From an uncultured Candidatus Poseidoniales archaeon (GTDB lineage: Archaea; Thermoplasmatota; Poseidoniia; Poseidoniales; Poseidoniaceae), in NCBI GenBank assembly GCA_905182635.1, contig CAJJCM010000008.1, forward strand, positions 1 through 45,083: 45,083 nucleotides of DNA. The letters run 5' to 3'. The position numbers and the translations under genes were made by a program. The notes beneath the pieces were generated by a model, which worked only from the letters and a program-made list of their open reading frames with translations, was not told the origin of the DNA and did no database searches. Shown here piece by piece: positions 10,139 through 31,618 of this stretch. Numbering within the stretch: position 1 is the first letter of the stretch; each line of letters starts with the position of its first letter.

Positions 10139-10146
10139 TATATAAA
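10139..10146 (-). promoter_or_regulatory. TATA box of the tfb gene
   Basis: On the minus strand the sequence reads TTTATATA, an exact match to the archaeal TTTAWATA consensus. Initiation about 26 bases downstream, near 10116, would leave a leader of about 58 bases before the tfb start codon. The rest of the 223-base divergent gap to the aconitase-like gene is AT-rich near 10100-10170. No second clear TATA element for the plus-strand gene was found. Confidence 0.65.
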
Positions 10147-31143: not shown

Positions 31144-31578
31144 TCACTGGCCGGCAAGAAGGGCCGGTACCATGCGAATGTGCTGAGCTGTGCTCAAATC
31201 AGTGGTTGCGAGTTGGTCGGTAGCCACCATACAGCTGTCGACAAAGACCCAAGCGCCGGATTGTTGCTTGGCTTTTTCGACGATTTCATTCTTGGTCATC
31301 TCGACAACGCTGTGTCCGGTCGGGTCGGCGATCTCAACGGTATAGGTTGGTTCATCACTCGAATCGTTACCTGCTTGAAGGGCAGGAACCATACGGATGT
31401 GCTGGGCTGTGTCAAAATCTGTGTTCGCAAGTTCGTCTGAAGCAACCATTCGGTTGTCGACAAAAACCCAGCTACCTTGGCTCTCGGTGGCTTGGTCAAT
31501 TAGTTCGGTCTTGGTCATCTCGACAACGCTGTGTCCTGTCAGGTCGGCTATTTCTACAATGTATGTTTTCTCACTCAT
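31144..31578 (-). CDS. Tandem-duplicated small protein, beta-grasp-like repeats
   Basis: The 144-residue protein is two near-identical halves of about 67 residues joined by a short NDSSDEP linker. Each half runs TYxVEIADxTGHSVVEMTK, then a helix, then WVFVDxxMVAxDxLAxTD, ending AQHIRMVPALxAG. The strand-strand-helix-strand-strand order and the terminal IRMVPALxAG, like the ends of ThiS/MoaD-type proteins, suggest a ubiquitin-like beta-grasp fold. The last residues are AGQ rather than GG. A perfect TATA box and a GAGGAAT ribosome-binding site precede it, suggesting high expression. The function is unknown, and the fold is inferred, not shown. Confidence 0.75.
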   Translation of the reverse strand: MSEKTYIVEIADLTGHSVVEMTKTELIDQATESQGSWVFVDNRMVASDELANTDFDTAQHIRMVPALQAGNDSSDEPTYTVEIADPTGHSVVEMTKNEIVEKAKQQSGAWVFVDSCMVATDQLATTDLSTAQHIRMVPALLAGQ

Positions 31579-31610
31579 GGATATTCCTCGTCAGTTTAAT
31601 ACCGTGACCA

Positions 31611-31618
31611 TATTTAAA
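31611..31618 (-). promoter_or_regulatory. Strong TATA box of the tandem-repeat protein gene
   Basis: The minus strand reads TTTAAATA, the exact archaeal consensus. Initiation is expected near 31588, ten bases ahead of the start codon, so the GAGGAAT at about 31583-31589 would sit at the very 5' end of the message. The upstream stretch 31619-31726 is otherwise without a gene. Confidence 0.7.

Follow-up and report, generated by a model that had tools for sequence, protein, structure and literature searches.

A tandem ubiquitin-like gene and its context

We analyzed a 45,083-nucleotide stretch of contig CAJJCM010000008.1 (hereafter "the window") from an uncultured Candidatus Poseidoniales archaeon. 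On its reverse strand lies an open reading frame that encodes a protein of two ubiquitin-like (Ubl) units of about 68 residues each (Table 1). The two units share the ending IRMVPALxAG and are 70% identical in amino-acid sequence over 66 residues; the first-pass annotation was thus right about the repeat, but went too far in calling the halves nearly identical. In the DNA, the units are underlain by direct repeats of 101 and 80 nt with 77-79% identity, at a spacing of 219 nt (73 codons). The 144-aa open reading frame is a real gene, since its dN/dS of 0.08-0.11 against five close relatives indicates purifying selection and 138 of 319 Poseidoniales genomes carry a homologue.

Table 1 Features of the tandem Ubl locus in the window.
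Feature	Position	Strand	Basis
PolyUbl gene, 144 aa, two ubiquitin-like units	31144..31578	-	Open reading frame; homologues in 138/319 genomes; dN/dS ~0.09
Ubl unit 1 (residues 3-70), C-terminal end IRMVPALQAG	31369..31572	-	Profile domain boundaries; beta-grasp elements in full-length model
Linker NDSSD joining the units; predicted cleavage site after G70	31354..31368	-	Low-confidence junction in model
Ubl unit 2 (residues 76-143), C-terminal end IRMVPALLAG	31150..31353	-	AlphaFold2 model pLDDT 83, beta-grasp topology; Foldseek
Residue Q144 behind AG; predicted removal at maturation	31147..31149	-	Mostly 1-3 residues past terminal GG/AG in relatives
TATA box TTTAAATA, ~33 nt upstream of ATG	31611..31618	-	TATA-like boxes at comparable positions in relatives
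Shine-Dalgarno-like GAGG	31586..31589	-	Sequence; similar purine-rich motifs in many relatives

The TATA box preceding the gene is real: relatives carry TATA-like boxes, often TTTATATG, at a nearly equal position before their Ubl genes. It had been described as the strongest in the window, but it is not unique there, as the consensus TTTAWATA has a second exact match at 10139, with 1.3 matches expected by chance over the whole window. In the window's family, the Ubl gene stays beside the genes for RpoP and an AAA/RFC-like protein. Elsewhere in the window, a long Pro/Gly-rich low-complexity region with PSGPPAGPP repeats precedes a class II aldolase/adducin domain (PF00596; 32892-34673, forward strand).

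Predicted fold of the Ubl units

We modeled a single unit with AlphaFold2, using as input the window unit together with units of related loci. The predicted unit has a beta-beta-alpha-beta-beta-beta topology in ubiquitin order at a pLDDT of 83, with secondary-structure elements E3-10, E13-20, H21-30, E35-38, E41-43, H45-48 and E59-62. In a full-length model the protein forms two beta-grasp domains, with the junction and the tail predicted at low confidence. Foldseek searches against the PDB returned ubiquitin, SUMO, ISG15, FAT10 and other Ubls as top matches, with weak scores (E ~0.01, TM ~0.5), and a search against a viral library agreed, matching viral ubiquitins. Taken as predictions, these models support the ubiquitin-like beta-grasp fold class well, but not the details of the fold. 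The first-pass annotation had proposed this fold, and the modeled unit and the Foldseek matches agree with it; we found neither a confident structure of another fold nor homologues belonging to a known unrelated family.

Searches of the Ubl sequence against Pfam, NCBIfam, PHROGs and the PDB gave sub-threshold and mutually inconsistent matches, none of them significant in Pfam or the PDB. In Pfam scans, neither the window Ubl nor its genome matched Multi_ubiq (PF14452), which is presumably the row 6e bacterial polyUbl family discussed below. Nor did the window Ubl match the ThiS/MoaD profile PF02597 at its curated cut-off; a separate PF02597 match lies elsewhere in the same genome (G000:C58). 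Two sub-threshold candidates suggested a tail protein. Lambda_tail_I (PF06805), also a beta-grasp family but one with a phage tail function, scored 20.8 bits (E 5e-4) against a cut-off of 23.8 bits, and no tail genes lie nearby. A PHROG "tail fiber assembly" match (E 6e-6) spans just 39 residues and is unsupported by gene context. We rejected the tail-protein reading because the gene's place on the chromosome, next to RpoP and the RFC-like AAA ATPase, is conserved.

Unit number and C-terminal glycines across the family

The number of units per protein varies among homologues from different genomes, with one, two, three or four units found. Each of the 132 distinct units, internal and terminal alike, ends in a C-terminal glycine, as -GG in 104 and as -AG in 28. 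Among internal units this glycine is kept in 60 of 60 distinct examples, and the final units of stand-alone Ubls mostly carry 1-3 more residues past it. In each of 75 multi-unit proteins, all units have the same ending, either GG or AG. The AG units, those of the window included, come almost entirely from the window's clade, the exception being a single-unit protein (L055); because the AG units of this clade share one origin, the matching ends of both units in a protein partly reflect shared descent rather than parallel constraint. The observation that the window protein ends in AGQ rather than GG therefore holds for this protein as a trait of one clade, a clade that keeps E1/JAMM enzymes with intact motifs. 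The conserved internal glycine, short tails, variable unit number and JAMM partner (below) fit a polyubiquitin-like precursor.

In metagenome-assembled genomes (MAGs), contigs tend to end at the tandem Ubl gene or next to it (L137, L138, L139, L140), perhaps owing to its repeats, and counts of Ubl presence are therefore underestimates. At another locus (L072:1018-5747), a single-unit Ubl ending exactly at GG lies amid three paralogous large proteins of no known family and an HNH-like protein.

Partner E1/ThiF-like and JAMM/JAB-like enzymes

In family f2 and in several genera of family f1, the Ubl gene is followed in an operon by genes for a ThiF-like E1 and a JAB-like protein, and some of these operons also encode an additional-domain protein and an 80-aa protein. 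Single-unit Ubls are found in operons with the same E1 and JAB families. Gene fusions join the components further: the E1 carries two fused Ubl units in three genomes (G131, G132, G170) and probably in a fourth with a masked stretch in its sequence (G169), and the E1 is fused to the JAB in four others (G223, G207, G204, G279). The overlapping E1 and JAB genes of the window's family form a pair unlinked to the Ubl gene; they usually lie near genes that we read from their sequences as GDP-mannose dehydratase-like and 3-hydroxyacyl-CoA dehydrogenase-like. One genome (G094; L105, L113) carries two separate E1-JAB pairs and one detected Ubl gene.

The dedicated E1 is about 220 aa long, scores above the Pfam ThiF cut-off (PF00899; E 1e-12 to 1e-17), and aligns as a profile to MccB, Uba6 and other E1 structures. 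Its motifs comprise GxGGIG, DxD, N, Q, K, D, R and an invariant SCQ that contains the candidate catalytic cysteine. The JAB partner, which falls under the Pfam Prok-JAB cut-off, matches the catalytic stretch of AMSH at the profile level (E 0.007). In the window's family it carries the motif E-Xn-HTH-X7-S-X2-D, in agreement with the JAMM/JAB definition E-Xn-H-S/T-H-X7-S-X2-D (PMC300881); in many f2 members the X7 spacing is one residue shorter (X6). In a 390-genome sample of the phylum, the JAB family was confined to Poseidoniales. JAB matches are present in most AG-clade genomes, and the E1 and JAB proteins that we examined there have intact motifs.

We recognized no E2 or E3 in the system. 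In several operons a domain that we call "E2x" adjoins the Ubl or is fused behind it (L068:3129-3947, L065:4259-5341, L061:4563-6014); it had no match in family and PDB searches, and we do not claim it as an E2, though it could possibly act as an E2 replacement or a target adaptor. PADLOC mostly matched the E1s to generic E1-E2 models, and we claim no defense role.

Co-occurrence of Ubl and JAB genes

Across the 319 genomes, 138 have the Ubl, 150 have the JAB and 125 have both. The association holds when stratified by genus (Mantel-Haenszel odds ratio 19, p 4e-20) and also within the window's own genus, g1, where the two loci are unlinked (Fisher p 1.3e-6). Six genomes of this genus have a JAB and lack a detected Ubl, and all six show contig breaks or missing assembly at the Ubl locus: one contig begins within the Ubl gene (G069), three end beside or inside neighboring genes (G070, G042, G068), and in two genomes the gene neighboring the Ubl was not found (G058, G074). 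None of these six JAB-only genomes shows a true absence of the Ubl.

The genome from which the window derives is 66% complete, and we found neither E1 nor JAB in it. Because of this incompleteness, and because the genome also lacks a ThiF-like homologue that 286 of the 319 genomes have, their absence says little. Most Ubl-bearing relatives do have an E1 and a deconjugating-type protease in their genomes, and we infer that the species of the window has the E1-JAB pair as well. A search for E1-like and JAB proteins, proposed in the first-pass annotation, hence came back empty in this genome and positive in its relatives. The same annotation noted correctly that no E1-like enzyme lies near the Ubl gene, an absence that comes from the loci being unlinked and the MAG incomplete.

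A proposed polyubiquitin-like modifier system

The Ubl very probably serves this E1/JAMM pair. Our best reading, which we consider likely, is that the gene encodes a tandem Ubl modifier precursor, akin to polyubiquitin, with a dedicated E1 and JAMM enzyme; we also consider it probable that the Ubl is processed to single units and conjugated. We infer a cycle of cleavage, activation, conjugation and reversal, targets included. Encoded elsewhere beside its E1, the JAMM/JAB metalloprotease would cleave behind each unit's terminal glycine and take off the last residue of the precursor. Such processing has a precedent in Caldiarchaeum subterraneum, where a JAMM enzyme processes a ubiquitin precursor after Gly-Gly (PMC6043591). 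Adenylation of the exposed C-terminal glycine by the E1/ThiF-like enzyme would come next, followed by a thioester on the enzyme's conserved S-C-Q cysteine. From there the Ubl could be attached to amino groups of targets, in this family probably without an E2, as in archaeal SAMPylation, which proceeds with no known E2 (PMC4443979). The same JAMM enzyme would reverse the conjugation.

An unlikely alternative is that the protein functions uncut with its two Ubl domains joined, as do ISG15, FAT10 and multi-domain bacterial Ubls, and is activated at its last glycine only. Bacterial multi-domain Ubls do exist (PMC1779556 row 6e), the linkers are short, and the units have stable positional identities, 96 of 114 being closest to the unit at the equal position in another species (in most multi-unit proteins). 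Yet a C-terminal glycine retained by every distinct internal unit would be needless if only the last tail were used, and the single-unit forms in operons with the same E1/JAB families likewise argue for processing. Loss of conjugation in the AG clade, with the protein persisting as a non-conjugated Ubl scaffold or decoy, is far less credible still. The penultimate glycine matters in ubiquitin, and the change from GG to AG runs throughout the clade; against this reading, the last glycine is invariant in all AG units, dN/dS is 0.09, and the clade retains its JAB matches and intact enzyme motifs.

It is also quite improbable that the Ubl is a sulfur carrier of the ThiS/MoaD/Urm1 type, activated by the E1 to a C-terminal thiocarboxylate for thiolation of tRNA, a cofactor or a metabolite. 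Combinations of Ubl, E1 and JAB without an E2 also occur in sulfur-transfer operons (PMC1779556 rows 4a-4e), and in the window's genus the Ubl adjoins a gene that the first-pass annotation had called TudS-like and that Pfam identifies as a 2-thiouracil desulfurase. While the neighbor's identity was thus confirmed, its value as evidence for sulfur transfer was not, as several other genera lack it in the vicinity of the Ubl; we saw no conserved sulfur-metabolism neighbor around the loci. Moreover, the E1s that we scanned lack a rhodanese domain, and PF02597 misses the Ubl while matching a separate protein of the same genome.

Ubl-like proteins on viral contigs

Three viral contigs with a DNA polymerase-like gene encode a Ubl-like protein, KYKIEIADRTGHSTV...GMLVGG (L120:5908-6276, L121:4748-5218, L122:5860-6261). 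The matching segment is IADRTGHS, with GMLVGG near the end, and hhalign gave 96.6% over 41 columns for the protein of L122. Two genes downstream of the Ubl-like gene, L120 and L121 encode a JAB-like protein, which in L120 is a Pfam Prok-JAB match.

Significance and comparison with known systems

Tandem polyubiquitin-style precursors are best known from eukaryotes. The Poseidoniales proteins present an analogous tandem layout, with variable unit number and E1/JAMM partners, in abundant surface-ocean archaea. They also offer a natural series (one to four units; GG and AG tails; free, operonic and E1-fused forms) for studying the evolution of precursor processing and E1 recognition. The system appears, provisionally, to be undescribed: a literature search confined largely to open-access journal papers found no prior description of a Ubl system in Poseidoniales/Marine Group II (MGII), and in a survey one MGII single-cell genome is credited with a UCH protease and RING proteins (PMC4327156). 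Whether Poseidoniales have a tagging system of their own, distinct from those of SAMP and Caldiarchaeum, with its own E1/JAMM enzymes, a precursor of one to four units and, in one clade, an Ala-Gly conjugation tail, strikes us as an evenly balanced proposition.

Among archaeal systems, the haloarchaeal SAMP/UbaA/HvJAMM1 system likewise combines a beta-grasp modifier, a stand-alone E1 and a JAMM protease with no obvious E2. SAMPs, however, are single-domain and ThiS/MoaD-like, whereas the Poseidoniales Ubl is tandem, is missed by PF02597, occurs alongside PF02597 proteins and has a dedicated E1 of ~220 aa. The Caldiarchaeum Ub/E1/E2/RING/Rpn11 system also has a precursor with JAMM-removed residues past GG (PMC6043591), but this precursor is a single unit, is much nearer to eukaryotic ubiquitin, and is accompanied by a complete E2 and RING E3. 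With eukaryotic polyubiquitin the Poseidoniales proteins share head-to-tail units and a conserved C-terminal glycine, and with ISG15 and FAT10 a two-domain layout; they differ from all three in having no detectable sequence similarity, mutually diverged units and a JAMM-type protease.

Closest in layout are the bacterial polyUbl operons described by Iyer, Burroughs and Aravind in 2006 (PMC1779556 row 6e), which combine tandem Ubls (2-3) with E1 and JAB, encoded within one gene or in neighboring genes, and also include E1-JAB fusions; in some species the Ubl carries an additional fused domain. Unlike these, the Poseidoniales family lacks a Multi_ubiq match, carries GG or AG on every unit, reaches four units, is unlinked from E1-JAB in one family, and has no demonstrated E2/RWD domain. 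The best reading of the system is an archaeal variant of the bacterial polyUbl-E1-JAB kind.
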